Assembly: GCF_009711525.1 (NCBI RefSeq)
Contig: NZ_SMLV01000417.1
Coordinates: forward strand, 1 to 41,935
Reading direction: 5' to 3'
Origin: Fulvivirga lutimaris
GTDB taxonomy: Bacteria > Bacteroidota > Bacteroidia > Cytophagales > Cyclobacteriaceae
DNA length: 41,935 nucleotides
The first letter of the stretch is position 1. Every line of letters begins with the position of its first letter. Under the pieces are notes generated by a model that did no database searches, had not been told where the DNA came from, and saw only the letters and a list, made by a program, of their open reading frames with translations. Shown piece after piece: positions 2,867 through 16,905 of this stretch. The translations under genes were made by a program, and so were the position numbers.

Positions 2867-3211
2867 ATGAGTGCTGTTTCCGAATTTAATGATTATCGCG
2901 CCAAAATGAATGAGCGCATTTTAAATGCTGATAATAAAGTAATTAAAAGGATTTATAACCTTGATACAAACGCATTTGCCGAAGGAGCACTTGACGTAAA
3001 AACTAAGGAACTTCTAGGCCTGTCGTGCTCTATGGTCCTGCGGTGCGATGACTGTGTTAGATACCACTTGGGTAAATGCCATGAACTAGGGCTGAGTGAA
3101 AAAGAAGTTTTCGAGGCCTTTGCTATTGCAAACCTTATTGGCGGTACTATTGTTATTCCACATCTAAGAAGAGCTACCGAATACTGGGATAGCCTTAATG
3201 AAGCTAAATGA
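2867..3211 (+). CDS. Carboxymuconolactone decarboxylase / AhpD-like protein
   Basis: A 114-residue, all-helical protein of the carboxymuconolactone decarboxylase (CMD)/AhpD superfamily. The redox motif CDDC with a following His is at C60, C63 and H67 (C-x2-C-x3-H), as in AhpD-type alkylhydroperoxidases, which suggests a thiol peroxidase or disulfide-exchange role rather than the decarboxylase reaction. The C-terminal block IGGTIVIPHLRRA is typical of the subfamily. It has no signal peptide, so it is cytoplasmic. It overlaps the next gene by 4 bases (ATGA), implying translational coupling. Its true substrate cannot be read from the sequence. Confidence 0.8.
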   Translation: MSAVSEFNDYRAKMNERILNADNKVIKRIYNLDTNAFAEGALDVKTKELLGLSCSMVLRCDDCVRYHLGKCHELGLSEKEVFEAFAIANLIGGTIVIPHLRRATEYWDSLNEAK

Positions 3212-3573
3212 TAAAAAAAGATCTTGATTTAGAACGTAAGTGGCAGGCATTGAGGCTTTCATTACAAAAAGTAATAGGCAAAAGGCCAAAAGACCTCAAT
3301 GCTATCCTTTTTCTAATTGGTGTGCAAGAATTGGGTAAGGGCAAGCATTCTTTTGACAAAGAAGAAAAGCAAGATCTTATGCACATCGCTATTTGTAAGG
3401 TGCTCAGTCTTTCTGGTTTTTATGAGTTAGAGGGATTAGATGAAGAAGGTTGGCCACATTGGAAATTAGTAAAAACATTGCCTCATTTTGATCTTCTAGA
3501 ACAGGAAAAGTTATTAAAGATGCATGTTATTGAATATTTTCAGACGGAAATGCCACTAATGGAAGATTCATAG
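3208..3573 (+). CDS. Conserved hypothetical protein
   Basis: A 121-residue soluble protein with no signal peptide or membrane segment. It has the look of a small conserved Bacteroidota protein (RPKDLNAILFLIGVQELG and KEEKQDLMHIAICKVLS blocks, then EGWPHWKLV), but I cannot assign a named family or function. Predicted mostly helical. It begins in the ATGA overlap with the AhpD-like gene, so the two are almost certainly made from one message. A 59-base gap separates it from the DUF4175 gene. Confidence 0.75.
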   Translation: MIKKDLDLERKWQALRLSLQKVIGKRPKDLNAILFLIGVQELGKGKHSFDKEEKQDLMHIAICKVLSLSGFYELEGLDEEGWPHWKLVKTLPHFDLLEQEKLLKMHVIEYFQTEMPLMEDS

Positions 3574-3632
3574 GATAGCAACATAAACTTGAGTATCATC
3601 AACTACGTAATAGCTGTATCAGAGACTACTGA

Positions 3633-6600
3633 ATGAGTGACAAGGAAAAAATATTATTCAAACAGCTAAGTGCCTACAAGCGTAAGTACTTTTTAAACCT
3701 TTTGCTTAAGGGTTTAATAATTAGTACTGCAATACTGCTTGGATTATTTTTAATCTTTAACTATCTGGAGTACACATTTCAGTTTGGCATTAATATCAGG
3801 TCCTTTCTATTCTTTTCATTTGTAATCACATCTATCTATCTACTTGGTAGGTTTGTTATAATACCAGGCTATAAAGTTGCGAACATCGACAAGGCAATGA
3901 ATAACGAAATTGCTGCTCGACAGATTGGCAATTATTTTCCAGAAATAAAAGATAAGCTTCTCAATATCATACAGTTAAAAAGTAAATCCGGTGATTCTTA
4001 CTTTGTTAACGCAGGTATAAATCAGAAAATGGAGGCTCTTCCACCCATCAGTTATGATCAGGCCATAGAACTAAAGGCAAACAACAAATTCTTGCCATGG
4101 CTGCTGGTACCTCTTGCATTAATTGCTGCTATAATACTTTTTAATCCTAAAATGATATTGACGAGTACTTCAAGAATAACTCAGTTCAATAAAGATTTTA
4201 TTCCCCAAGCTCCATTTGATTTTAATTTTCTCAACGAATCAAAAAAGGCCTTTAAAAACGAAGACTTTACCATAAGCCTTAAAATAGAAGGCACTTCCTT
4301 GCCAGATAATGTATATATAAATAATGATGGCCGAAAGTTTAAAATGGCATCCGTGAGCAATGACTTGTTTACCTATACATTCAACAAAATTCAGAATACT
4401 AAATCTATAAAGTTTGAGGCTTCAGGCTTCCAATCAGCAACCTATAAAGTCAACGTCTTCCAAAGGCCTGATTTAAGAAACTTCAATCTATATTTCGAAT
4501 ACCCGAAATATCTAAATAAAAAAACAGAGCGAATCTCTAATATTGGCAATGCAATAGTACCAGAAGGGACAAATATCAAATGGCAGTTAAATACACTTGA
4601 AGCCAAGCAGGCATTTATACAGTTTGATTCAAAGAGTTCTGAAGAAATACCAATGGAACTATCTGACAATCAAATATTTGAGTATGATAAAATCATGAAG
4701 TCATCTGATAAATATCAGTTGAAACTTTCTAATGATCATAGCCTTAACAAAGATCCTATTATCTACAATATTGATGTTATAAAAGACGAGTTCCCCAAGA
4801 TCATTAGCGAAGTCTATCCTGACACTACACTATATAGTCAAATTAGCTTCGCAGGTAATGTTCTTGATGACTATGGCCTGACACAGCTAAAGTTATTTTA
4901 TAGTTTTGATAATGAAAACTACCAATCCATCAACATTCCAATATTAAATGGTCAAACAAGTCAGCGCTATTTTTACAACTGGGTTTTAGACTCTCTGCTC
5001 ACTGATACCGGCAAGTTGAGCTATTATCTTCAGGTATGGGACAATGATGGTGTCAATGGACGAAAATCAACCAAGACTGCCACCTACAAGTTTGAGTTAC
5101 CTAATAAAAAGGAAATTAAGGACAACATTGACAAAGTCGCCCAACAAACTGAAAGCAAAATTGATAAGACCCTACAAGATGCTAAAGAATTAAAAGAGCA
5201 GCTCGAGGAAGCCGAAAAAAGAATTAAAGGGAAAAAGGAACTCAACTGGCAGGACGATAAGCAAATCAAAGATTTGTTAAAGCAGCGCGAAGCTCTGAAC
5301 GAAGCTATCGAAGAACTCAAAGAGCAGAATAGAAATAATAGCATCAAAAGAGAAAAGTTCTCCCAGCAGGATGAAAAAATAAAAGAGCGTGTCCAAAAGT
5401 TGCAAGAATTAATGGACGAGCTGTTAGATGATGAAACCAAAAAACTTTATGAAGAACTGAAACAGCTTCTTGAGCAAAATCAAGATGTAGAAGACATCCA
5501 GGAGTTACTGGATAAAATCAATAATAAAGAAACCAACCTTGAGCAAGAGTTGGAAAGAACTTTGGAATTATTCAAAAGAATGAAATTTGAGTTCGAGTTG
5601 AACGAAGCACTCAACGAACTTAAGGAACAAATCACTGATCAGGAACGCCTTATACGTGAAACAGACAAGCAGAAGGGTGAGGGAACTGAAAAATCCAGCA
5701 CTCTCGAGGAACAAGAAGAAAAAAATCAATATGAAGAAAATAATTTAAAAAGTAAGGATTCTGATGTATTGAAAGAAAATCAGGAAGAATTGCAAGAAGA
5801 ATTTAAAGAATTGCAAGAGGATTTGGAAAAGCTAAATGAGCATAATCAATCGCTGAAAAATCCAGAATCTTTACCAAATACACAAGAAGAACAAGAATCT
5901 GTTGAAGAAAACCAACAAGAGAGCAAAGAGAATCTTGAAAACAATCAAAGACAAAAATCTAAAGAAAGTCAGAAAAAAGCTCGAGATGCCATGAAGCAAA
6001 TGGAGCAGAAATTATCTCAAATGCAAAGCAGTATGGAGATGGATGCCATGCAAGAAAACCTGGATGACCTGAGAGCAATTGTTTACAACCTCTTAAGACT
6101 TTCTTTCGAGCAGGAGAATCTGATGAATGAATTTACAGGTGTTAAGCAAAGTGATCCTCGATTCATTGAACTTTCCCAAAAGCAGTTGAAGCTAAAAGAC
6201 GATTCGCAAATTGTTCAGGACAGTTTGCTTGCATTGGCTAATCGTGTGTTTCAAATCGCTTCTTTTGTAACTCGTGAGGTAACATCCATGAATGAGCACA
6301 TGGATAAATCTGTAGAGGCTATTAAGGAACGAAAGAAACCTATAGCTGTATCAGAGCAACAGTTTGCCATGACATCCATTAATAATTTGGCGCTTTTGCT
6401 TGATGATGTCCTACAGCAAATGCAATCTGCTATGGCCGATGCTATGGGGAAACCTCAGAAAAAGAAGGGAAACCAAAAGACACCGAGCCTGAGTGAACTA
6501 CAACATCAGCTTAATGGCAAGATTGAAGAGCTTAAAGAAAGTGGTAAATCAGGAAGAGAACTCTCTGAAGAGCTTGCAAAATTGGCTGCTGAACAGGAAA

Positions 6601-7004
6601 GAATAAGACAAGCACTAAAAGAAGCACAAGATAAAGCCGGACAGAATGATAACGGTAAAATGCCTGGACAAGGTCTTCCTAAGAAAATGGAAGAAACTGA
6701 AAGTGATTTAGTAAATAAGCGACTGACAACCGAGACAATTCTGCGACAGAAAGAGATATTGACCAGGCTTCTTGAAGCTGAAGATGCCTTAAGAGAAAGA
6801 GATCTGGACGAAGAAAGAAAAGCTGAAACGGCCAAAGATTATGAGAAAGCAGTGCCTCGTGCTTTCGAAGAATATTTTAAACTTAAGGAGCAAGAAATAG
6901 AGCTATTAAAAACTATTCCACCAAAACTATATCCTTATTACAAAAACGAAATTAATGAGTATTTTAGGCGAATCGGTGAATTGAATAACAAGCAATCAGA
7001 ATGA
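3633..7004 (+). CDS. DUF4175-family membrane-anchored coiled-coil protein
   Basis: A 1123-residue protein typical of the large Bacteroidota DUF4175 family. It has three hydrophobic segments near the N-terminus (about 24-43, 56-78 and 153-170). These are followed by a beta-rich probably periplasmic domain (about 190-490), then a very long Glu/Lys/Gln-rich coiled coil (about 495-850) and another helical, charged region with KPQKKKGNQK (about 930-1050). No enzymatic motif is visible. The function of the family is unknown to me; the architecture suggests a structural or scaffolding role in the envelope. It ends in an ATGA overlap with the RsbW-like gene, so the two products may act together. The composition is low-complexity but the reading frame is clean throughout. 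Confidence 0.8.
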   Translation: MSDKEKILFKQLSAYKRKYFLNLLLKGLIISTAILLGLFLIFNYLEYTFQFGINIRSFLFFSFVITSIYLLGRFVIIPGYKVANIDKAMNNEIAARQIGNYFPEIKDKLLNIIQLKSKSGDSYFVNAGINQKMEALPPISYDQAIELKANNKFLPWLLVPLALIAAIILFNPKMILTSTSRITQFNKDFIPQAPFDFNFLNESKKAFKNEDFTISLKIEGTSLPDNVYINNDGRKFKMASVSNDLFTYTFNKIQNTKSIKFEASGFQSATYKVNVFQRPDLRNFNLYFEYPKYLNKKTERISNIGNAIVPEGTNIKWQLNTLEAKQAFIQFDSKSSEEIPMELSDNQIFEYDKIMKSSDKYQLKLSNDHSLNKDPIIYNIDVIKDEFPKIISEVYPDTTLYSQISFAGNVLDDYGLTQLKLFYSFDNENYQSINIPILNGQTSQRYFYNWVLDSLLTDTGKLSYYLQVWDNDGVNGRKSTKTATYKFELPNKKEIKDNIDKVAQQTESKIDKTLQDAKELKEQLEEAEKRIKGKKELNWQDDKQIKDLLKQREALNEAIEELKEQNRNNSIKREKFSQQDEKIKERVQKLQELMDELLDDETKKLYEELKQLLEQNQDVEDIQELLDKINNKETNLEQELERTLELFKRMKFEFELNEALNELKEQITDQERLIRETDKQKGEGTEKSSTLEEQEEKNQYEENNLKSKDSDVLKENQEELQEEFKELQEDLEKLNEHNQSLKNPESLPNTQEEQESVEENQQESKENLENNQRQKSKESQKKARDAMKQMEQKLSQMQSSMEMDAMQENLDDLRAIVYNLLRLSFEQENLMNEFTGVKQSDPRFIELSQKQLKLKDDSQIVQDSLLALANRVFQIASFVTREVTSMNEHMDKSVEAIKERKKPIAVSEQQFAMTSINNLALLLDDVLQQMQSAMADAMGKPQKKKGNQKTPSLSELQHQLNGKIEELKESGKSGRELSEELAKLAAEQERIRQALKEAQDKAGQNDNGKMPGQGLPKKMEETESDLVNKRLTTETILRQKEILTRLLEAEDALRERDLDEERKAETAKDYEKAVPRAFEEYFKLKEQEIELLKTIPPKLYPYYKNEINEYFRRIGELNNKQSE

Positions 7005-7402
7005 AAAGTATCAAAATAGAAATTCCATCACTTACGGAGAATATCCGAATGATCGAAAGCTTTATAGATAATGCCAAAGAAAAGTTTCAGCTTGATGATG
7101 ACATTTATGGCAATATTATGATTGCTGTTACGGAGGCAGTAAACAATGCCATCAAGCATGGTAACAAAGGCGACAAGGATAAAAATGTGAAATTATCTCT
7201 TGGTTTAGAGGACAGTATGATCACCTTTCTTATCCAGGATGAGGGCAATGGCTTTGATTTTCAAAATTTGCCAGACCCCACAGCTCCTGAAAATCTTGAG
7301 AAGCCAGGAGGAAGAGGAATCTTTTTAATGAAGCATTTGTCTGATGAAGTTTCATTTCTTGATGAAGGAAAAACTGTTTCCTTAAATTTCTACATAAATT
7401 AA
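7001..7402 (+). CDS. RsbW/SpoIIAB-like anti-sigma ATPase (HATPase_c)
   Basis: A 133-residue single GHKL ATPase domain of the serine-kinase anti-sigma type. The N box is AVTEAVNNAIKHG with Glu 45 and Asn 49; the G1 box is QDEGNGFDF around Asp 80; the G2 box is GGRGIFLMKHL at about 103-113. In Firmicutes such proteins bind a sigma factor and phosphorylate an anti-anti-sigma STAS protein. In Bacteroidota the gene is often found alone next to ybeY and mnmG, without an obvious sigma partner, and no STAS protein or sigma factor is present in this window. It overlaps both neighbours (ATGA upstream, TAATG downstream), so it is translationally coupled to the DUF4175 gene and ybeY. Confidence 0.85.
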   Translation: MKSIKIEIPSLTENIRMIESFIDNAKEKFQLDDDIYGNIMIAVTEAVNNAIKHGNKGDKDKNVKLSLGLEDSMITFLIQDEGNGFDFQNLPDPTAPENLEKPGGRGIFLMKHLSDEVSFLDEGKTVSLNFYIN

Positions 7403-7830
7403 TGAGTCACATTCACTTCTTTGAAGAGGACATTGACTTTAAACCAGAGCACTCTTCTCAAATAACAAAGTGGTTAAATGATGTCATTACTGTTGAGAAT
7501 CACACCTTAGTTGAATTAAACTATATCTTTTGTTCTGATGAGTATCTGTATCAAATGAATGTAGATTATCTTGATCATGATACCTACACAGATATTATAA
7601 CCTTCGACAATTCAGAAAGTGAAGAGGAAATAGAAGGAGATATATTCATCAGTATCGATCGAATTAAAGAGAATTCTCAATCAATGGCCATTAGTTTCCA
7701 GGAAGAGTTGCACAGAGTAATAGCTCATGGGTTATTACATCTCCTTGGCTATAATGACAAAACAGAAGAGGAAAAGGCCATGATGCGAAAAAAAGAAGAA
7801 GCTTGTTTATCTTTGCTCCCCAAACTTTAA
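7402..7830 (+). CDS. ybeY: YbeY, endoribonuclease / rRNA maturation factor
   Basis: A 142-residue UPF0054 protein. The zinc site motif reads HGLLHLLGYND (residues 109-119), with His 109 and His 113 intact, but the usual third His of H-x3-H-x5-H is Asp 119. As far as I recall a Lys/Asn-Asp form here is normal in Bacteroidota, so this is a lineage variant and not damage. YbeY is a single-strand endoribonuclease needed for 16S rRNA 3' end maturation and ribosome quality control. The central block TYTDIITFDN is the conserved family core. It starts within the stop codon of the anti-sigma gene. The stretch between it and mnmG carries two parS sites. Confidence 0.9.
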   Translation: MSHIHFFEEDIDFKPEHSSQITKWLNDVITVENHTLVELNYIFCSDEYLYQMNVDYLDHDTYTDIITFDNSESEEEIEGDIFISIDRIKENSQSMAISFQEELHRVIAHGLLHLLGYNDKTEEEKAMMRKKEEACLSLLPKL

Positions 7831-7837
7831 AAGAAAC

Positions 7838-7853
7838 TGTTCCACGTGGAACA
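7838..7853. promoter_or_regulatory. parS centromere site 1 (ParB binding)
   Basis: TGTTCCACGTGGAACA is a perfect 16-base palindrome. It differs by one base from the ParB binding site TGTTCCACGTGAAACA known from Bacillus subtilis Spo0J. It lies 8 bases after the ybeY stop. No parA or parB gene is in the window. Confidence 0.88.
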
Positions 7854-7875
7854 CAAGTTTTATAAGAACTGTTAA

Positions 7876-7891
7876 TGTTCCACGTGAAACA
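7876..7891. promoter_or_regulatory. parS centromere site 2 (ParB binding)
   Basis: TGTTCCACGTGAAACA is identical to the classical parS sequence of Bacillus subtilis. It sits 38 bases centre-to-centre from site 1 and 12 bases before the mnmG start codon. ParB spreading from here could also affect mnmG transcription; that part is inference. Confidence 0.92.
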
Positions 7892-7903
7892 CTTAAGAAA
7901 ATA

Positions 7904-9766
7904 ATGTTTTCAGAATACGATGTGATAGTAGTAGGAGCAGGACATGCCGGATGTGAAGCCGCTCATGCCGCTGCTAAAATGGGTTCAAAAGTTCTATTGG
8001 TAACAATGAACATGAACACCATTGCCCAAATGTCCTGCAATCCAGCTATGGGTGGAATTGCCAAAGGGCAAATTGTAAGAGAAATAGATGCATTGGGAGG
8101 TATGTCTGGAATAATCTCAGATTTATCCATGATACAGTTTCGCATGCTTAATATGTCAAAAGGGCCTGCCATGTGGAGTCCCCGTACACAAAATGACAGA
8201 ATGAAGTTTGCCGAAGAGTGGAGATTAGCTCTTGAAAGAACACCTAATGTAGACTTTTGGCAAGAAATGGCTACTGGAATACTTGTTGAAAACAATAAGG
8301 TTGTAGGTATTACTACTTCTTTAGGCCTGGAAATAAAGGCAAAGTCAGTTGTTCTAACTAATGGAACATTCCTAAACGGAATCATTCATATAGGTGAAAA
8401 GCAATTTGGAGGTGGTAGAACAGGCGAAAGAGCGGCAAAGGGAATTACTGAACAGTTGACTAAACTAGGCTTTGAAGCAGGAAGAATGAAGACAGGAACT
8501 CCTCCAAGAGTAGACAGCAGAAGCCTGGATTATACCAAAATGGAAGAACAGAAAGGTGACGAGAAACCAGGTAAATTCTCCTATACAGATACCAAACCAT
8601 TATCTGAGCAGAGGAGTTGTTATATAACCTATACCAATAATGAAGTACATGAAACACTTCAAACTGGTTTTGACAAGTCGCCAATGTTTAATGGCAGGAT
8701 TCAGGGAATAGGCCCAAGGTATTGCCCTTCTATTGAAGATAAAATAAACAGGTTTGCTGAAAGAGAACGTCATCAGATTTTCGTTGAGCCTGAAGGCTGG
8801 AACACCGTAGAGATATATGTCAATGGCTTTTCTACCTCTTTACCTGAAGATGTACAATACGAATCATTGAAAAAGATACCCGGCTTTGAGAATGTTAAGA
8901 TGTTCAGACCTGGCTATGCTATTGAATACGACTACTTTCCACCGACACAACTAAGCCTGACTTTAGAAACCAAGTTGATTGAAAACCTGTACTTTGCTGG
9001 ACAAATCAATGGTACCACAGGTTATGAAGAAGCCGCATGTCAAGGTCTAATGGCCGGCATTAATGCTCATAATAAAGTGCATGGCAAAGAACCATTTACT
9101 CTTAAAAGATCTGAGGCATATATAGGTGTACTAATAGATGACCTAATTAACAAAGGTACAGATGAACCTTACAGAATGTTTACGTCAAGAGCTGAGTTCA
9201 GAATACTATTAAGGCAGGATAATGCCGATATCAGATTAACAGAAAAAGGGCACAGTCTCGGTCTTGCTGATGATAACAGACTGAACAATGTATTCGATAA
9301 AAAGAATGCACTAGATGCTCTTCTAAATGACCTCCACCAAAAGCGCGTAGAACCCTCCGTTTCTAATGACGTATTGCAAGATTTAAATACCGCCACATTA
9401 AAGCAGAGGGTTCCCGTAATTAATATTTTAAAACGACCTGAAGTTAATATTCAACACCTTAAAGAGCTCAACCCAGAACTCAACTCTTACTTATCTAAGT
9501 ATGATAATGACATCTTACAACAAGCAGAGATAGCTGTTAAGTACGAAACCTACATTGAAAAGGAACGCCTACTTGCAGAAAAGATGGAGTCATTGGAGGA
9601 CAAAAAGATCAGAAACAACTTTGACTATAACGAAATCAAAGCGCTTTCATCGGAAGGCAGACAGAAGCTTATACACATTAAACCCAGTACAATCGGACAA
9701 GCCAGTAGAATCAGCGGTGTATCACCATCTGATATTTCTATTCTAATGGTATATTTATCAAAATAA
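7904..9766 (+). CDS. mnmG: MnmG, tRNA U34 carboxymethylaminomethyl-modifying enzyme
   Basis: A 620-residue FAD protein, full length for the family. The N-terminus has the dinucleotide-binding motif VVGAGHAGCEAA (GxGxxG at 11-16). The family signatures CNPAMGGIAKG, RMKTGTPPRVD and a second FAD contact around YFAGQINGTTGYEEA are present, and the C-terminal helical domain that binds MnmE/tRNA ends in ISGVSPSDISILMVYL. With MnmE it installs the cmnm5 group at U34 of several tRNAs, in the cytoplasm. mnmG (gidA) lies next to the replication origin in many bacteria, in keeping with the parS pair just before it and the origin 2.6 kb after it. Unusually, it is transcribed towards that origin. The methyltransferase gene follows after 2 bases. 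Confidence 0.97.
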   Translation: MFSEYDVIVVGAGHAGCEAAHAAAKMGSKVLLVTMNMNTIAQMSCNPAMGGIAKGQIVREIDALGGMSGIISDLSMIQFRMLNMSKGPAMWSPRTQNDRMKFAEEWRLALERTPNVDFWQEMATGILVENNKVVGITTSLGLEIKAKSVVLTNGTFLNGIIHIGEKQFGGGRTGERAAKGITEQLTKLGFEAGRMKTGTPPRVDSRSLDYTKMEEQKGDEKPGKFSYTDTKPLSEQRSCYITYTNNEVHETLQTGFDKSPMFNGRIQGIGPRYCPSIEDKINRFAERERHQIFVEPEGWNTVEIYVNGFSTSLPEDVQYESLKKIPGFENVKMFRPGYAIEYDYFPPTQLSLTLETKLIENLYFAGQINGTTGYEEAACQGLMAGINAHNKVHGKEPFTLKRSEAYIGVLIDDLINKGTDEPYRMFTSRAEFRILLRQDNADIRLTEKGHSLGLADDNRLNNVFDKKNALDALLNDLHQKRVEPSVSNDVLQDLNTATLKQRVPVINILKRPEVNIQHLKELNPELNSYLSKYDNDILQQAEIAVKYETYIEKERLLAEKMESLEDKKIRNNFDYNEIKALSSEGRQKLIHIKPSTIGQASRISGVSPSDISILMVYLSK

Positions 9767-9768
9767 AA

Positions 9769-10653
9769 ATGCTAGAAACTCTTGAAAGCTGCCCATCATG
9801 TGGGCATCAATCATACCACTCATACATAAAGTGTAAAGATTTCACTGTAACTCAAGAGGAATTTGAAATAGTAATGTGTGACAATTGCACCTTGCTATTT
9901 ACGAATCCAAGACCAACAGCTAAACACCTTGGTAGATATTATGAGTCAGAAGAGTACATTTCTCATACTAACACAGCCACCAATATTATAGGCATCATTT
10001 ATAAAGCTGTAAGATCAATTGCCCTTAAGTCAAAAGTTAAGCTCATTAATAAAGCTAGTACCAAAGGAACGCTACTTGACTATGGCTGTGGAACGGGGCA
10101 TTTCCTGACTCAGGCAAACAAAGCTGGCTGGCAAATAACAGGGATCGAACCCAGTGAATCAGCCAGAGCCAATCTCGATGAAAATATAAAGAGTAATGTT
10201 TATACTGACATTAATCAATTAAAAAAAGATGTAAAGTACAATGTCATCACCTTGTGGCACGTACTGGAACACATATCGGATTTAAAACATACCTTAAATC
10301 TACTTGTCGCTAAACTAGCAGATAATGGTAAGTTGATCGTTGCTGTTCCAAACCCTGACAGCTATGACGCCAAAGTGTATGAAAGCTATTGGGCCGCTTA
10401 TGATGTGCCAAGACACTTGTATCATTTCACACAAAAAAGTCTAGCACAATTATTGGAAAGTATGAGTCTTAAAATTGATTATACCCTACCAATGAAGTTT
10501 GACGCTTTCTATGTTTCTTTGCTTAGCGAAAAGTATAAAAGAGGTAGGTCAAATTACTTTAATTCATTCATAAATGGCTATAAATCAAATAGTTACGCTA
10601 AAGCAAATGATAATAATTACTCGAGCTTGATCTACATTATTAGCAAAAAATGA
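9769..10653 (+). CDS. Class I SAM-dependent methyltransferase with N-terminal zinc ribbon
   Basis: A 294-residue protein. The N-terminus has two Cys pairs (C8/C11 and C37/C40), a likely zinc ribbon, followed by LLFTNPRP, a combination common in Bacteroidota methyltransferases of the Methyltransf_23 type. The SAM-binding motif LLDYGCGTGHFL is at about 102-114, with VITLWHVLEHISD as the post-motif region. The substrate is not apparent. These proteins are often linked to cell-envelope or O-antigen sugars, but here the neighbours are mnmG and an Ig-like lipoprotein, giving no clear lead. It begins 2 bases after the mnmG stop and overlaps the next gene by 4 bases (ATGA), so it is part of the same transcript. 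Confidence 0.85.
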   Translation: MLETLESCPSCGHQSYHSYIKCKDFTVTQEEFEIVMCDNCTLLFTNPRPTAKHLGRYYESEEYISHTNTATNIIGIIYKAVRSIALKSKVKLINKASTKGTLLDYGCGTGHFLTQANKAGWQITGIEPSESARANLDENIKSNVYTDINQLKKDVKYNVITLWHVLEHISDLKHTLNLLVAKLADNGKLIVAVPNPDSYDAKVYESYWAAYDVPRHLYHFTQKSLAQLLESMSLKIDYTLPMKFDAFYVSLLSEKYKRGRSNYFNSFINGYKSNSYAKANDNNYSSLIYIISKK

Positions 10654-12386
10654 GAAGAATATTAAAGCAAGCATTTTACGTAGGCCTATTTATAACCTCT
10701 ATACAGTGTGCCAACCAAACTGCACCGACTGGAGGACCCAGAGATGAAGACCCACCTGAACTCGTAACTTCAAATCCTTCCAATGAAGAACTTAACGTTT
10801 CAACCCAATCAATCACTTTCGAGTTTAATGAATATATTAAGCCCAACACAGCCAAAGAGCAAATCATAATTACTCCAAGATTAACGCAGGAGTACGAAGT
10901 CAATGTTAAAAAAGACAGGCTCATCATTGAACTTTCTGAACCTCTCTCGGAAAACACCACATATACAATTAATATAAGAGAAGCTGTGCAAGATATTACA
11001 GAAAGCAATCCACCTGATAATTTAAAAATAGCTTTTAGTACAGGTGCTTTTCTGGATTCGCTTAGTATAACAGGTGTTATCAATAATCAACTTACCAACC
11101 AATTTGTAGATGACTATAGTATTTACCTTTACGATGCCTCTGATACTCTTGACATCTTTAACGGTCCCCCATTATACGTAACAAAGACAAATGAAATAGG
11201 TGAGTACCTTTTAGAAAATCTAAAATCAGCCACTTACAACCTATTTGCCCTTAAGGATAAAAACAAAAATTTTATCGCTGATGTAAAATCAGAATCCTAT
11301 GGTTTCTATTCTAGTCCTATAGTTTTAGATAGTAGCAACAATAATGTGGACTTTACAATTCAAAAATTAGATGTCAGGCCAATAGAACAAATCAGTGCAC
11401 GACAAAATGGAACTACATACGAAATCAAATACAATAAAAATCTTAAATCGTATAATCTAGAGTTTTTAGACTCAGTCGAAATATTCAGCTCTTTCACTGA
11501 TGAATACCAGAGCACCTTAAGAATTTACAACCCTCAGAACATTCAGGACAGTCTATTGACATTTATCCATATTACTGATTCTGTCAACAACAGTTCTATC
11601 GACACTGTTTTTGTGAGATTTGAGGAGACCTCACGAAGTCCTTTAGACTTTATAGCCAATTCAACGTTAGAAAAGGTATTTGTTAATGAACCTATTATTA
11701 AATCCTCACTTACATTCAGTAAACCTATTGCAACATTGAACACGGATTCATTATATGTATATATAGATTCATTGACTATCATTAGACCAGACTCTAGTCA
11801 TCTACAATGGAACTATTCAAAAGATAAACTAGAGATAAACATGCCATTAGATCCTAGTCTCTTTTCGTCATCCTCAGAAACCGCCAAACCGCCTACTTCT
11901 GCACCCAAACAGAAGCTAGTTAAACCTGACAGTTTATTAACGAGCGATAGCACAAAACAAGAGCCTCCCAAACCAGATCTAAAACCTCATCTATACTTTG
12001 GTTTTGGAACGTTCATTAGTCCTGAAGCAGACACTGCGAAAATCATGAAGAAAGAATTAAGTTTTACAAAGCCCGATGCTTATGGAATAATGCTTGTCGA
12101 AGTAGAAACCTCTAAGACCTCCTATATTGTTCAACTGCTGAATAAAAACAACGAGGTAGTAGACAGTAAGAAAAATCTTAAAAAATTTTCGTTTATCAAC
12201 GTGCCACCAGGAGATTATAAACTCAGAGTTCTTATTGACAGCAATCATAATGGTGAATGGGATCCTGGAAATATTTTAGAAAAACGCGACCCAGAACCAG
12301 TTATCTTTTATCTTAATTCAGAAGAAAAAGATCTCCTAACCATAAGAGCTAACTGGGAACTTGGTCCTAACATAATTAAATTTTAG
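10650..12386 (+). CDS. Ig-like (SbsA-type) domain lipoprotein
   Basis: A 578-residue surface lipoprotein. The signal ends at SIQC with Cys 20, and the mature protein begins with ANQTAPTGGPRDEDPPELV, a start shared by a family of Bacteroidota Ig-like-domain proteins. Residues about 35-125 form the SbsA Ig-like domain (ITFEFNEYIKP, YTINI), followed by a carboxypeptidase-regulatory-like beta domain (GEYLLENLKSATYNLFALKD). A Pro/Lys-rich linker lies at about 410-450. A second short beta domain near the C-terminus (INVPPGDYKLRVLIDSNHNGEWDPG) resembles a calcium-binding loop. The function is unknown; envelope location is inferred. Its stop codon directly abuts the first DnaA box of the putative origin. 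It is the last gene of the 2.9-12.4 kb run. Confidence 0.82.
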   Translation: MRRILKQAFYVGLFITSIQCANQTAPTGGPRDEDPPELVTSNPSNEELNVSTQSITFEFNEYIKPNTAKEQIIITPRLTQEYEVNVKKDRLIIELSEPLSENTTYTINIREAVQDITESNPPDNLKIAFSTGAFLDSLSITGVINNQLTNQFVDDYSIYLYDASDTLDIFNGPPLYVTKTNEIGEYLLENLKSATYNLFALKDKNKNFIADVKSESYGFYSSPIVLDSSNNNVDFTIQKLDVRPIEQISARQNGTTYEIKYNKNLKSYNLEFLDSVEIFSSFTDEYQSTLRIYNPQNIQDSLLTFIHITDSVNNSSIDTVFVRFEETSRSPLDFIANSTLEKVFVNEPIIKSSLTFSKPIATLNTDSLYVYIDSLTIIRPDSSHLQWNYSKDKLEINMPLDPSLFSSSSETAKPPTSAPKQKLVKPDSLLTSDSTKQEPPKPDLKPHLYFGFGTFISPEADTAKIMKKELSFTKPDAYGIMLVEVETSKTSYIVQLLNKNNEVVDSKKNLKKFSFINVPPGDYKLRVLIDSNHNGEWDPGNILEKRDPEPVIFYLNSEEKDLLTIRANWELGPNIIKF

Positions 12387-12395
12387 TGTGGATAA
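12387..12395 (-). promoter_or_regulatory. DnaA box, perfect
   Basis: TGTGGATAA, the exact complement of TTATCCACA, beginning on the first base after the stop codon of the Ig-like lipoprotein gene. Confidence 0.85.
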
Positions 12396-12535
12396 GTAGC
12401 TAGTAACTTGTTGGTAAATTCAAACTTCTTCACACTTACACCGTTATCACTCTATAACAATTAAGGACTGAACATGTAACTTCTATGAACTAACAAGTTA
12501 ACACCAACTTATAAACAATATTAAACGAAATAATA

Positions 12536-12544
12536 TTATCCACA
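12536..12544 (+). promoter_or_regulatory. DnaA box, perfect
   Basis: TTATCCACA, an exact match to the consensus in the middle of the origin region. Confidence 0.87.
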
Positions 12545-12611
12545 AATTTCCAAAGTTATCACCAACTAAACTATAAACATCTATTTATGAGTCACTTATA
12601 TAATTTAATAA

Positions 12612-12620
12612 TGTGGATAA
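12612..12620 (-). promoter_or_regulatory. DnaA box, perfect
   Basis: TGTGGATAA, the exact complement of the consensus, 68 bases from the preceding box and in the opposite orientation to it. Confidence 0.85.
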
Positions 12621-12687
12621 AGAGTAAATAAAGTATACACTTTTCTACACCCATCAAATGCAAACTAATTTTAAATTTCTTTTCCAC

Positions 12688-12696
12688 GTATCCACA
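12688..12696 (+). promoter_or_regulatory. DnaA box, one mismatch, next to unwinding element
   Basis: GTATCCACA differs from the consensus only at the first base. It is the last box before the A/T tract and so the likely loading site for strand opening. Confidence 0.65.
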
Positions 12697-12697
12697 T

Positions 12698-12740
12698 GCT
12701 AATAATTAATAATAATTTATTTAATTAATATATATATTAA
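12698..12740. other. A/T-rich DNA unwinding element candidate
   Basis: After the bases GC at 12698-12699 the rest of this 43-base stretch is A/T only, with TAAT-type triplet periodicity (TAATAATTAATAATAAT) followed by TATATATATT. The triplet pattern beside a DnaA box is reminiscent of DnaA-trio elements, but the match is loose. Confidence 0.6.
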
Positions 12741-12758
12741 AACTACTGTGTAGACATC

Positions 12759-14597
12759 GTGAATAACTCAAGATATCTGATATTAATAATCACCTTATTT
12801 TTGCTTGCCTTACCGGCTTATTCACAGCAAAGTAATGAAGTGCAACTGGCCAATGAATATTATGGCCAGGGTGATTATGTTAAAGCAAAAAAATTATATG
12901 ATGAGCTGGCCAAAGATTTTAGAAACATTCCATTAATCCACAACAATTATTATTTTCTACTCATAGAGTCGCAGGATTTTAATGATGCCAGTAAGTACAT
13001 AAAACGGCTCATAAAAAAGTTTCCAGATAACCTCTACTATAGACTTGACTATGGATTGCTCTTACTGGCTTCTGAAGGTGAGGATAGAGCAAGTGACTAC
13101 TTTGATAATATCATAAGCGATATAAAATTCGACTCTTATCTCACCAGTATTACGGCTGACTATTTTGTCAATAAAAAATTAACGCAGTTTGCAATTAAGA
13201 CTTTTCAGGAGTCTCGAAAGGCATTAAAAAGCCCGTATTCCTTTTCTTTGGAAATGGCCAATATTTACAGGATAATGAATTCGAAAGACTTGATGGTAGA
13301 GGAGTATTTGAACTATGTAAGTCAAAACCCTTCAAATCTGAATTATGTAAAAAATACCCTCCAAAGTTTACTTGCCAAACCAGATGAATTAGAAAGCCTT
13401 GAAAAGCTGCTTTATGATAAAATTCAGCAAAATCCGGAAAGCGAAATTTATGGTGAACTTCTAATATGGGTAAATCTTCAGCAGAAAAATTTTTATGGAG
13501 CTTTTGTTCAGGCCAGGGCCATTGATCGCAGACTAAAATCTGAAGGATCCAGAACTTTGAATATTGGATTGATCGCACTTGATAATGACGACTATAATAA
13601 TGCGATAAAAATATTTACGTATTTAATCAAGACATATCCGGGCTCGCATAATTACATTTTGTCAAAAATGTATTTGATCAGATCTTATGAAAAGAGAGTT
13701 AGGAACACCTATCCAATTGATGAGAGAGAAATTAGAAATCTGATAAATGATTATAACCAATTCATTGCCGAATTGGGCATTACAAGAAATACATTGGAAG
13801 CCCTGCGTAATAAGGCGTTGTTACATGCATTTTATTTAGATGAGAAAGATTCTGCGATAAATATTCTGCAAAAAATTATTGAAACGCCCAGAGCAAGCCC
13901 TGATATTAAGGCTCAATCTAAACTTGATCTTGGAGATATCTATCTTTTGATTGGTGAACCATGGGAATCTACATTGCTCTATTCCCAAGTTGAAAAATCT
14001 AACAAAGACGAAAACCTGGGATATACTGCAAAGCTTAAAAATGCAAAGCTCTCATACTATAAAGGAGATTTTCAACTGGCTGAAGAACATCTTGATATTT
14101 TGAAAGAAGCGACAACAAGAGAAATTGCTAATGACGCTATGTCGCTAAGTTTATTAATAAAAGACAACACCGCGCTTGATACTGCAGAAATTGCTATGAG
14201 ACGCTATTCAGAAATAGAACTTCTACTTTTTCAGAATAAAACCGAGCAAGCAACAGCAGCCATCGATAGCATGATGAAAGAATATGATCACCATTCCTTG
14301 ACCGATGAATTGATATGGTTAAAAGCAGATATTGAAACTAAGCTTGGTCATTTTGATGAATCAATTTCACTGCTCGATAGAATAATTGATAATCACGGCA
14401 CCGACATACTTGGAGATGATGCTTTTTTCGAAAAAGCTGATATTATTGACCGGCAGCTTCACAAAAAGGAGGAAGCTATGGATTTGTATCGCACCTTTCT
14501 AACCAAATATCCTGGAAGTGTCTTTGTGGCTGAAGCCCGTAAAAGATTTAGAGAACTTCGTGGAGATTTTGACAAGCAAGAACAGCTTGTAAACTAA
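12759..14597 (+). CDS. Exported tetratricopeptide-repeat protein
   Basis: A 612-residue protein. Residues 1-22 are a signal peptide (hydrophobic LILIITLFLLALPAYS then Gln). The rest is helical repeats of TPR type: clear units include EVQLANEYYGQGDYVKAKKLYDEL-like (about 27-50), TLNIGLIALDNDDYNNAIKIF, KLDLGDIYLLIGEPWESTLLYSQV and a C-terminal KEEAMDLYRTFLTKYPGS unit resembling YbgF/outer-membrane-assembly TPRs. Probably a periplasmic scaffold; partner unknown. The start is GTG: the frame is closed by a stop 21 bases upstream, no ATG is close, and the signal peptide begins right after it. It is the first gene to the right of the origin and is transcribed away from it, co-directional with replication. 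Confidence 0.82.
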   Translation: MNNSRYLILIITLFLLALPAYSQQSNEVQLANEYYGQGDYVKAKKLYDELAKDFRNIPLIHNNYYFLLIESQDFNDASKYIKRLIKKFPDNLYYRLDYGLLLLASEGEDRASDYFDNIISDIKFDSYLTSITADYFVNKKLTQFAIKTFQESRKALKSPYSFSLEMANIYRIMNSKDLMVEEYLNYVSQNPSNLNYVKNTLQSLLAKPDELESLEKLLYDKIQQNPESEIYGELLIWVNLQQKNFYGAFVQARAIDRRLKSEGSRTLNIGLIALDNDDYNNAIKIFTYLIKTYPGSHNYILSKMYLIRSYEKRVRNTYPIDEREIRNLINDYNQFIAELGITRNTLEALRNKALLHAFYLDEKDSAINILQKIIETPRASPDIKAQSKLDLGDIYLLIGEPWESTLLYSQVEKSNKDENLGYTAKLKNAKLSYYKGDFQLAEEHLDILKEATTREIANDAMSLSLLIKDNTALDTAEIAMRRYSEIELLLFQNKTEQATAAIDSMMKEYDHHSLTDELIWLKADIETKLGHFDESISLLDRIIDNHGTDILGDDAFFEKADIIDRQLHKKEEAMDLYRTFLTKYPGSVFVAEARKRFRELRGDFDKQEQLVN

Positions 14598-14653
14598 AAA
14601 ATAACGTTTGCTAACAGTAATTTTCTTAAATTAACCTCTTTAACTTTTTAGTT

Positions 14654-16417
14654 ATGGAGATGACTCGCTTATTCGAATGTCTTGACTTTCAATTAAAGAA
14701 TGATTCTGTTGAAGATGCTTTCGCTGCAAAGCACAATGGACAATGGAAAAAATATAGCACTCAACAAGTCAAAGATATTGTTAATAGTCTAAGCTCCGGA
14801 CTTTTGGATAGGGGCATTAAAAAGAATGACAAAGTAGGCATTGTTTCTTTTAACAAGCCAGAATGGGTATTTGCTGATTTAGCACTAAGTCAAATAGGTG
14901 CGATCTCTGTGCCTATGTATCCAAACTCAACTTCAGAGGATTATGCATTTATAATAAATGATGCTGAAGTAAAACTCACTTTTTGCGGAGATAAGGAGCT
15001 TTATGATAAACTAGAAATTACTAAAAAATCTATTGATCAGGACTTCAGTATTTATTGCTTCGAAAATATTGGCAATATATTCTGGGAGACTTTGCTGGTT
15101 AAGCCAAGTGACGAACACCTTAAGCAAATAGATAATCTTAGAAATGAAATTGCAAATGAAGACCTTGCAACAATAATTTATACATCAGGAACAACCGGAA
15201 CTCCAAAAGGTGTGATGCTTTCGCACAAAAATATTTTATCCAATTCGATGGCTGTGGCAAGTATCTTTCCAATAAGTGGCAGCGGTTACAGAACATTAAG
15301 TTTTTTACCACTCTGCCATATTTTTGAAAGAACAGCATCTTATGCTTATATGCAAATGGGTATATCGATATACTATGCCGAAAGCATGGATACCATTGGC
15401 GATAACCTTAAGGAAGTAAAGCCTCACTTTTTTGCAACGGTGCCTCGTTTGCTCGAGAAAGTATATGACAAAATTGTGGCCAAGGGTTATGAACTTACAG
15501 GAATAAAAAAGAACCTTTTCTTTTGGGCGTTGAAACTGGGAGATAAATTTGAACCTAATCAGAATTATGGCCTGGGCTACAAGCTACAATTAGCACTAGC
15601 CAATAAAATAATTTTCAGCAAATGGCGTGAGGCATTAGGTGGTAATGTCCAATTTATAGTTTCAGGAGCTGCGGCTCTGCAACCACGTTTAGCACGCGTT
15701 TTTTGGGCAGCGCAAATTCATATACTAGAAGCATATGGTTTAACAGAAACATCTCCGGGAATTAGTTTTACTAGAGATGATGCTCAAGATGTCAGAATCG
15801 GATGCGTTGGGCCCATGCTACCAGAAGTGGAAGTTAAAATAGCCGATGATGGAGAAATTTTGGCCAAAGGGCCGAATATAATGATGGGTTATTACAAACG
15901 GCCAGACGCAACGGCCGAAGCCATTGATAAAGATGGCTGGTTTCATACAGGCGATATCGGTGAAATTGTTGAGGGTAGGTATTTGAAAATTACTGACAGG
16001 AAAAAGGAAATGTTTAAAACATCAGGTGGTAAATACATCGCGCCTCAGCCTGTAGAAAATAAATTCAAAGAATCAGTGCTTATCGAACAGGTCATGGTTG
16101 TTGGAGAAAGTGAAAAATTTCCAGCTGCGCTGGTGGTTCCAGCTTTTGATGCGCTAAAAGATTGGTGCAATAAAAAGGGCATTACTTATACCACGGACAA
16201 AGAGATAATTCTTAATGAAAAAGTGCTTGCAAAATTTGAGCGTGAGAAGGATCGCTATAATTCAGATTTTGCGCAATACGAAAAAATTAAGAAGCTAAAA
16301 TTATTGCCTGAAATATGGACAATTGAAGGAGGTGAACTTACTCCAACGCTTAAACTAAAGCGAAAAAACATCATGTCTAAATACAGCAAAGAAGTATCAG
16401 AAATTTATAGCGAATGA
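14654..16417 (+). CDS. Long-chain acyl-CoA synthetase (AMP-forming)
   Basis: A 587-residue member of the ANL adenylating superfamily, full length, of the FadD15-like long-chain group. The ATP-binding P-loop motif IIYTSGTTGTPKGVMLSH lies at 174-191, the A5 motif is EAYGLTETSPGISF, the adenylate contact is GWFHTGDIGEI, and the hinge DRKKEMFKTSGGKYIAPQ is intact. It activates long-chain fatty acids to acyl-CoA at the membrane using ATP and CoA. It may feed the beta-oxidation operon at 23-29 kb, although it is not in that operon. It overlaps the small kinase gene by 4 bases (ATGA), indicating one transcript. Either ATG of MEM could be the start. Confidence 0.9.
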   Translation: MEMTRLFECLDFQLKNDSVEDAFAAKHNGQWKKYSTQQVKDIVNSLSSGLLDRGIKKNDKVGIVSFNKPEWVFADLALSQIGAISVPMYPNSTSEDYAFIINDAEVKLTFCGDKELYDKLEITKKSIDQDFSIYCFENIGNIFWETLLVKPSDEHLKQIDNLRNEIANEDLATIIYTSGTTGTPKGVMLSHKNILSNSMAVASIFPISGSGYRTLSFLPLCHIFERTASYAYMQMGISIYYAESMDTIGDNLKEVKPHFFATVPRLLEKVYDKIVAKGYELTGIKKNLFFWALKLGDKFEPNQNYGLGYKLQLALANKIIFSKWREALGGNVQFIVSGAAALQPRLARVFWAAQIHILEAYGLTETSPGISFTRDDAQDVRIGCVGPMLPEVEVKIADDGEILAKGPNIMMGYYKRPDATAEAIDKDGWFHTGDIGEIVEGRYLKITDRKKEMFKTSGGKYIAPQPVENKFKESVLIEQVMVVGESEKFPAALVVPAFDALKDWCNKKGITYTTDKEIILNEKVLAKFEREKDRYNSDFAQYEKIKKLKLLPEIWTIEGGELTPTLKLKRKNIMSKYSKEVSEIYSE

Positions 16418-16905
16418 TCATAGGAATTGCAGGTGTTAGCAGATCTGGCAAAACGACTTTAGCAATTTCTTTAAAAGAAAAACTAGGTAATGCGGAAATC
16501 ATCAGTCTTGATGACTATCCTGCCAAAATCGAAAATTTCAAATACATCAAGGATGTCATTGACTGGGAGCATCCATCATCTCTAGATTTCGTAAAAATTA
16601 TTGATGTTGTTCGTGAAGCTGCAACGAAAAACGAGATCATAATAGTTGAGGGGATTTTCCTCTTTCATCATGAAACCTTGAAATCGCTTATTGATAAATT
16701 CATTTATCTAGATCTCGAAAAGGAAGATTTTTTAAAGAGAAAATTGCATGATAATCGTTGGGGTCATATTCCGAATTGGTACCGAGAACATATTTGGCAA
16801 AGTCATTTACTATTTGGGGTTAAGCCCGTTGGTGTTGAAGCCTTTGAGATAAATGCTAATTCAGGCTTTAGCTTTTCAGAACTGCAAGACTATCTGGAAA
16901 AGTAA
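16414..16905 (+). CDS. Uridine-kinase-like P-loop NTPase
   Basis: A 163-residue P-loop kinase with Walker A GVSRSGKT at residues 7-14, ISLDDYPAKI as the region holding the base-accepting Asp, VDWEHPSS-like IDWEHPSSLDF as in uridine/nicotinamide riboside kinases, and EIIIVEGIFLFH as the Walker B-like strand. The size and motifs fit the uridine kinase/NRK superfamily, but the exact substrate cannot be read; a nicotinamide riboside kinase or other small-molecule kinase is possible. Cytoplasmic. Its start overlaps the acyl-CoA synthetase stop, and a bidirectional terminator follows. Confidence 0.72.
   Translation: MIIGIAGVSRSGKTTLAISLKEKLGNAEIISLDDYPAKIENFKYIKDVIDWEHPSSLDFVKIIDVVREAATKNEIIIVEGIFLFHHETLKSLIDKFIYLDLEKEDFLKRKLHDNRWGHIPNWYREHIWQSHLLFGVKPVGVEAFEINANSGFSFSELQDYLEK

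Follow-up and report, generated by a model that had tools for sequence, protein, structure and literature searches.

A probable chromosomal replication origin of Fulvivirga lutimaris close to mnmG and parS but not to dnaA

Replication origins of the Bacteroidetes are commonly situated far from dnaA, as stated with reference to DoriC for Prevotella intermedia OMA14, itself an example (PMC4755523). Origins beside mnmG have been predicted with GC-skew support in two Flavobacteriaceae, Mariniflexile litorale (PMC11278836) and Algorimicrobium (PMC12843772), and the dnaA position of M. litorale was at odds with the skew (PMC11278836). The text of that paper places oriC at mnmG and the terminus at leuB, and its figure legend gives the opposite. 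Among twelve gut strains, including two Bacteroidetes, the origin indicated by parS, skew, and coverage did not always coincide with dnaA (PMC10197239). An origin near mnmG and parS, rather than at dnaA, is therefore expected (PMC4755523, PMC11278836, PMC12843772, PMC10197239), and the original prediction of an origin without dnaA in F. lutimaris was supported, but is no surprise.

Other described origins include that of Blattabacterium, which lacks dnaA and in which the origin was assigned by skew only (PMC2768785), and that of Melioribacter, placed between dnaA and dnaN (PMC3534657); neither has a bearing on the origin core described below. Plasmids marked oriC have been tabulated (PMC5288383). 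Replicative oriC plasmids have been published for Cytophaga hutchinsonii (Xu et al., 2012; reference entry in PMC5891637), and the remark in the original prediction that Cytophagales origins are little studied by experiment is thus only partly right. DciA has been described as an ancestral helicase operator, with the Bacteroidetes among the phyla having it (PMC5109545). The literature searched, in which subscription journals were thinly covered, yielded no description of the core anatomy of Bacteroidetes origins, no marker-frequency work on Flavobacterium or other Bacteroidetes, and no report of the DnaA-trio in this phylum.

The window analyzed here is a whole contig of 41,935 nucleotides from the F. 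lutimaris draft genome. Positions 12387-12758 and the first bases of the next gene very probably form the oriC of the chromosome, judging from the composition and conservation of the DNA. According to the ORF list, this intergenic gap of 372 bases is bounded by an ORF ending at 12386 and another starting with GTG at 12759. The upstream neighbor (10650-12386, plus strand) encodes an Ig-like (Big_5) domain protein (E 6.5e-19) and the downstream neighbor (12759-14597, plus strand) a TPR-repeat protein matching TPR families. Three perfect DnaA boxes, defined as TTATCCACA, were found at 12387-12395 (minus strand), 12536-12544 (plus strand), and 12612-12620 (minus strand), and the single-mismatch box GTATCCACA at 12688-12696 (plus strand), reproducing the box counts first reported for the gap. 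The last of these is the second member of an overlapping tandem pair, sharing one base with the weak box TTTTCCACG at 12680-12688 (plus strand). As noted originally, the first perfect box starts on the base after the stop codon of the Ig-like gene (12384-12386), and a perfect box lies directly 3' of a stop codon in all six genus members compared (the window, G219, G171, G267, L001, and L002). The number of perfect boxes per gap varies within the genus, with three in the window, one in G219, four in G171, three in G267, three in L001, and two in L002.

Past the tandem pair lies an A/T-rich element at 12697-12745 that begins with TGCTAATAATTAATAATAA, consists of 94% A/T, and is presumed to be the site of unwinding. 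The near-pure A/T tract noticed originally after the last box corresponds to an A/T-only run of 43 bases from position 12700, the next longest run in the window being 18. Computed duplex stability reaches its lowest values in the window in the 30-bp stretch from 12709 and in the 50-bp stretch from 12699, which would make the DNA adjoining the boxes easy to melt. A weak DnaA box that faces inward, CGTGAATAA, matching 7 of 9 bases, was located at 12758-12766 (minus strand), where it overlaps the GTG start of the TPR gene; both edges of the gap are thus packed against coding sequence.

The clustering of the boxes, not their number across the window, is the unusual feature. The combined total of perfect and one-mismatch boxes in the whole window was unremarkable, since its value of 19 was reached by 8 of 100 shuffles. 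In contrast, draws from a first-order Markov model of the gap contained at least two perfect boxes at a frequency of 5e-5, and none of 20,000 contained three or more. The draft genome (436 contigs; 4,855,472 bases, 4.86 Mb) has 54 perfect boxes in all, and inspection of the list by eye showed three within 500 bases solely at the gap, in a check that covered perfect boxes and would let a cluster split by a contig end escape. An equal or denser cluster, which the original prediction had named as evidence against the gap, was thus absent among these 54 boxes. In the related genome G171, three perfect boxes of the same orientation occur within 105 bases at 4347250-4347354 (4.347 Mb), near the inferred terminus.

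The neighborhood of the gap fits a ParABS origin domain. The mnmG (gidA) gene at 7904-9766 (plus strand; TIGR00136, 851.5 bits against a cut-off of 524.85) ends 2.6 kb before the gap and is followed by a SAM-dependent methyltransferase-like gene at 9769-10653 (plus strand; Methyltransf_23, E 1.1e-27). Directly before mnmG lie two parS-like sites, GTTCCACGTGGAAC at 7839-7852 and GTTCCACGTGAAAC at 7877-7890, each an exact match to GTTNCACGTGNAAC, placing mnmG and two parS sites within 5 kb of the boxes as had been claimed. These are the only two exact parS matches in the genome, 4.5 kb to the left of the gap; a ParB gene was identified on contig C150, so that both parS near the candidate origin and parB in the genome are present. 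A DciA gene (PF05258, E 6e-15) is encoded on a contig other than that of the gap. The whole dnaA gene is on another contig (C254), and the gap does not adjoin it. In three related genomes, dnaA lies approximately 0.90 Mb (G171), 1.3 Mb (G267), and 1.0 Mb (G111) away. In the window, positions 3633-7004 hold an ORF of 1123 amino acids with no Pfam match at E 0.001.

Because the genome is a draft and the window one of its contigs, the boxes might belong to a plasmid or secondary replicon instead of the chromosome; this is extremely improbable, given that the genes from 3207 to 16902, mnmG and ybeY among them, are matched by a collinear set flanking the orthologous gap of G267, on the only contig of that genome.

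Strand composition was analyzed in relatives, since the draft contigs of F. lutimaris cannot be ordered. The samples comprised 20 places of 20 kb per single-contig genome, and plain GC skew and GC skew at third codon positions (GC3) were both computed for three genomes of the genus (G219, G171, and G267). GC3 is given first because the genes on the mnmG side run toward the gap. In all three genomes, GC3 skew was below zero at coordinates lower than the orthologous gap and above zero at higher ones, returning to negative near the antipode, between +2037 and +2287 kb in G219 (of 4138), +3161 and +3661 kb in G171 (of 6524), and +3221 and +3721 kb in G267 (of 6393). The sign was that expected for a single origin at the gap in 60 of 60 samples (20/20 in each genome), including values close to zero in G171 (+0.004) and G219 (-0.003 and -0.010). 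Plain GC skew fitted in 50 of the 60 samples (16, 16, and 18 of 20, respectively) and remained negative in G171 as far as +80 kb. In the window itself, GC3 skew was -0.086 to the left and +0.089 to the right of the gap, while plain GC skew showed no change of sign (+0.024 and +0.074).

The switch bears on a second reading, in which the boxes would be a DnaA-regulated promoter or a DnaA-titration site in front of the TPR gene and replication would start elsewhere, for example at dnaA. The cluster does lie upstream of the TPR gene, and DnaA boxes occur at other places too, some of them inside genes. However, the skew switches at the gap, the samples flanking dnaA share one GC3 sign in both G171 and G267, the 4377 bases around the F. 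lutimaris dnaA contain no perfect DnaA box, and both exact parS sites of the genome are near the gap, making this reading very unlikely. An origin at dnaA, a promoter-only site, and a plasmid origin were accordingly rejected on the skew, parS, and synteny evidence.

Local analysis was less sharp. The best GC3 change point of the window fell exactly at the gap, with a strength equaled by 7% of gene-order permutations, and in the relatives the best change point was at +4.5 kb in G219 (gap second), -14.5 kb in G171 (gap fourth), and -11.7 kb in G267 (gap outside the top four). This scatter is partly due to a long ORF, at approximately -8.8 to -5.4 kb, with positive skew in all four genomes. The ORFs in question match 3633-7004 of the window in place and size and show positive third-position skew on an otherwise negative side. 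When 5-kb bins of the four genomes were pooled, GC3 skew was negative in seven of eight bins left of the gap and positive in eight of eight to the right. The range of change points in the relatives, -14.5 to +4.5 kb, would suit a wider origin region with the true start in another gap within approximately 15 kb, such as beside parS or mnmG. That placement is also very improbable, as the densest box cluster (in the window and in most mnmG loci), the tandem pair, and the A/T tract all fall in the gap at 12387-12758, which remains our preferred oriC.

Outside the genus the skew evidence was mixed, compared with its strength within it. In G111, from another family, the minimum of the cumulative plain GC skew fell in the interval bounded by the 2.50- and 2.79-Mb samples, adjacent to mnmG at 2.80 Mb; plain GC signs fitted in 18 of 20 samples and GC3 signs, more mixed, in approximately 14 of 20. 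Another ten single-contig genomes were sampled at four places each; one belongs to the genus, six more to the family, and three to other families. Means had the predicted direction in 8 of 10 genomes for GC3 and 6 of 10 for plain GC, and single, noisy samples fitted in 26 of 40 and 27 of 40, respectively. G204 showed no real skew change at the locus. In G038, a single-contig genome of the order, the sign was reversed on both sides of the mnmG locus for both GC3 and plain GC. The original prediction had proposed a skew minimum as a check. In the genus a GC3 switch was observed at the locus, and in G111 the plain cumulative minimum fell next to it; the plain skew of the genus fitted in 50 of 60 samples and the ten other genomes were mixed. 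Overall, an intergenic box cluster, an easily melted element beside it, and a strand-composition switch coincide at the gap, the switch being seen in G219, G171, G267, and the window by GC3. The predicted chromosomal oriC without dnaA is supported by the unique cluster, the skew of relatives, the dnaA gene on C254, and the conserved tandem pair described next.

Conservation was assessed in the best 80 of 585 confirmed mnmG loci, in which the best named mnmG matches were to F. marina (81%) and F. imtechensis (83%); the loci are not independent, as many come from close relatives such as Algoriphagus. In most of these 80 loci the densest box cluster was approximately 2.5-2.7 kb past mnmG. The parS sites were also retained, with one or more sites in the 300 bp preceding mnmG in 74 of 79 loci and at least two in 69 of 79. 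Of the 75 loci with enough sequence for the test (five of the 80 were too short), 70 contained the tandem pair TTATCCACNTATCCACA at a score of at least 13/16, compared with 10 of 413 control segments. A TAA[TC] motif followed 2-5 bases beyond the pair in 63 of the 70 loci with a pair vs. none of the 10 control segments with one. These TAA[TC] figures come from a scan without a TAA bonus, whereas the earlier choice of modules in 84 loci favored TAA and its TAA count was circular. Nine of those 84 loci lacked a module, and a few of the 75 modules (L058, L062, and L069) appeared misplaced.

A one-mismatch reverse box occurred 40-100 bases past the pair in 45 of the 75 modules (none perfect), compared with a forward box in 1 of 75, and the mean best match in this interval was 7.48 for reverse, 5.45 for forward, and 5.81 for shuffled sequence. 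The DnaA-trio was tested as a box within 16 bases of at least three trios (3'-NAN-5') according to the basal unwinding system (BUS); on the strand whose 5' end is distal to the boxes, runs of at least three trios were present in 47 of 75 modules vs. 43.4 expected from shuffles. A stricter core pattern was found in 45 of 195 family genomes, exactly once in each, and its reversed control in none. This strict form was absent from the other 150 of the 195, including 4 of 11 genomes of the genus. In 13 genomes compared by eye, the strict core was on the same contig as parS at a distance of 4.7-4.9 kb. The overlapping boxes, the TAATA element, the A/T tract, and the inward-facing box make up a compact core, which recurs in the majority of the relatives studied and is less expected than the location of the origin.

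Perfect boxes were also unevenly distributed around the origin region. In G267, the 90 kb on the right side of the gap contained 12 perfect boxes and the 90 kb on the left side one, excluding the gap. The same right-hand stretch gave a mean of 1.07 and no count above 9 for 1,679 letter permutations of the box. Ten of the 12 boxes were inside ORFs, as predicted from 89% coding sequence, and the box-rich stretch spanned 1778-1869 kb (L149, L150, L166, L167, and L151). Contig C195 of F. lutimaris (L162 and L163), picked for having the most boxes, contained six in its first 40 kb, a count reached by no permutation. Ten of its ORFs (>60% identity) had G267 matches lying from -101 to +135 kb relative to the gap, in a comparison that covered -180 to +260 kb of G267 plus fourteen other 20-kb samples. 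The window minus the gap had two perfect boxes, a number reached by 10% of permutations. Counts near the gap (120 kb, gap included) vs. far from it (280 kb) were 8 vs. 3 in G171, 2 vs. 0 in G219, and 16 vs. 3 in G267. DnaA titration near the origin is known in other bacteria. The enrichment would fit such titration.

From these features we infer DnaA binding, melting, helicase loading, and segregation at the origin. DnaA, encoded elsewhere, would bind the three strong boxes as well as the overlapping weak pair (12680-12696), oligomerize toward the A/T tract at 12697-12745, melt it, and hold one strand. The helicase loader, probably DciA, would then place DnaB for two forks, and ParB at the two parS sites 4.5 kb away would separate the new origins. 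A more speculative and rather unlikely reading is that the Cytophagales share a core close to a mirror image. A forward overlapping pair with TAATA would form its left side and a reverse box, pointing inward, its right side, separated by approximately 50 bases of A/T. DnaA filaments might then enter the A/T tract from both sides with one helicase for each, so that the two forks would be loaded symmetrically.

If the assignment is correct, it narrows the chromosome origin of the clade around Fulvivirga to a few hundred bases. The short core would then serve as an origin landmark in some of the order at least, where dnaA is a misleading guide. Its uses would include genome orientation, estimation of growth rates from metagenome coverage, and the building of oriC plasmids, and with boxes flanking the A/T tract, symmetric loading of helicases can be tested directly.

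Compared with described systems, the F. lutimaris locus resembles that of P. intermedia OMA14 in that its DnaA boxes coincide with a skew transition while dnaA is elsewhere (PMC4755523); however, P. intermedia belongs to another order, and the excerpted text mentions neither an mnmG/gidA neighbor nor a core anatomy. The two Flavobacteriaceae (PMC11278836, PMC12843772) are likewise of another order. In F. lutimaris, the gap follows mnmG at a distance of 2.6 kb, with two more genes between. The likeness to C. hutchinsonii, a Cytophagales origin carried on plasmids, is drawn from a reference entry and not from sequence (PMC5891637). The E. coli-type oriC, between gidA (mnmG) and mioC (PMC10225481), uses the same box sequence and likewise has an A/T-rich element close to mnmG, but its neighbor genes differ, and the loader here is probably DciA. 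In Thermotoga maritima, boxes are combined with trinucleotide (TAG) repeats in the unwinding element (PMC10316083), while the element beside the pair here is TAATAA or TAATAG, known from sequence alone. The BUS of Bacillus subtilis and others similarly places tandem DnaA boxes next to its unwinding region (PMC8287927), but the boxes here overlap by one base and DnaA-trio runs are no commoner than in shuffles; the possible mirror-image core would be two-sided, in contrast to the one-sided BUS.
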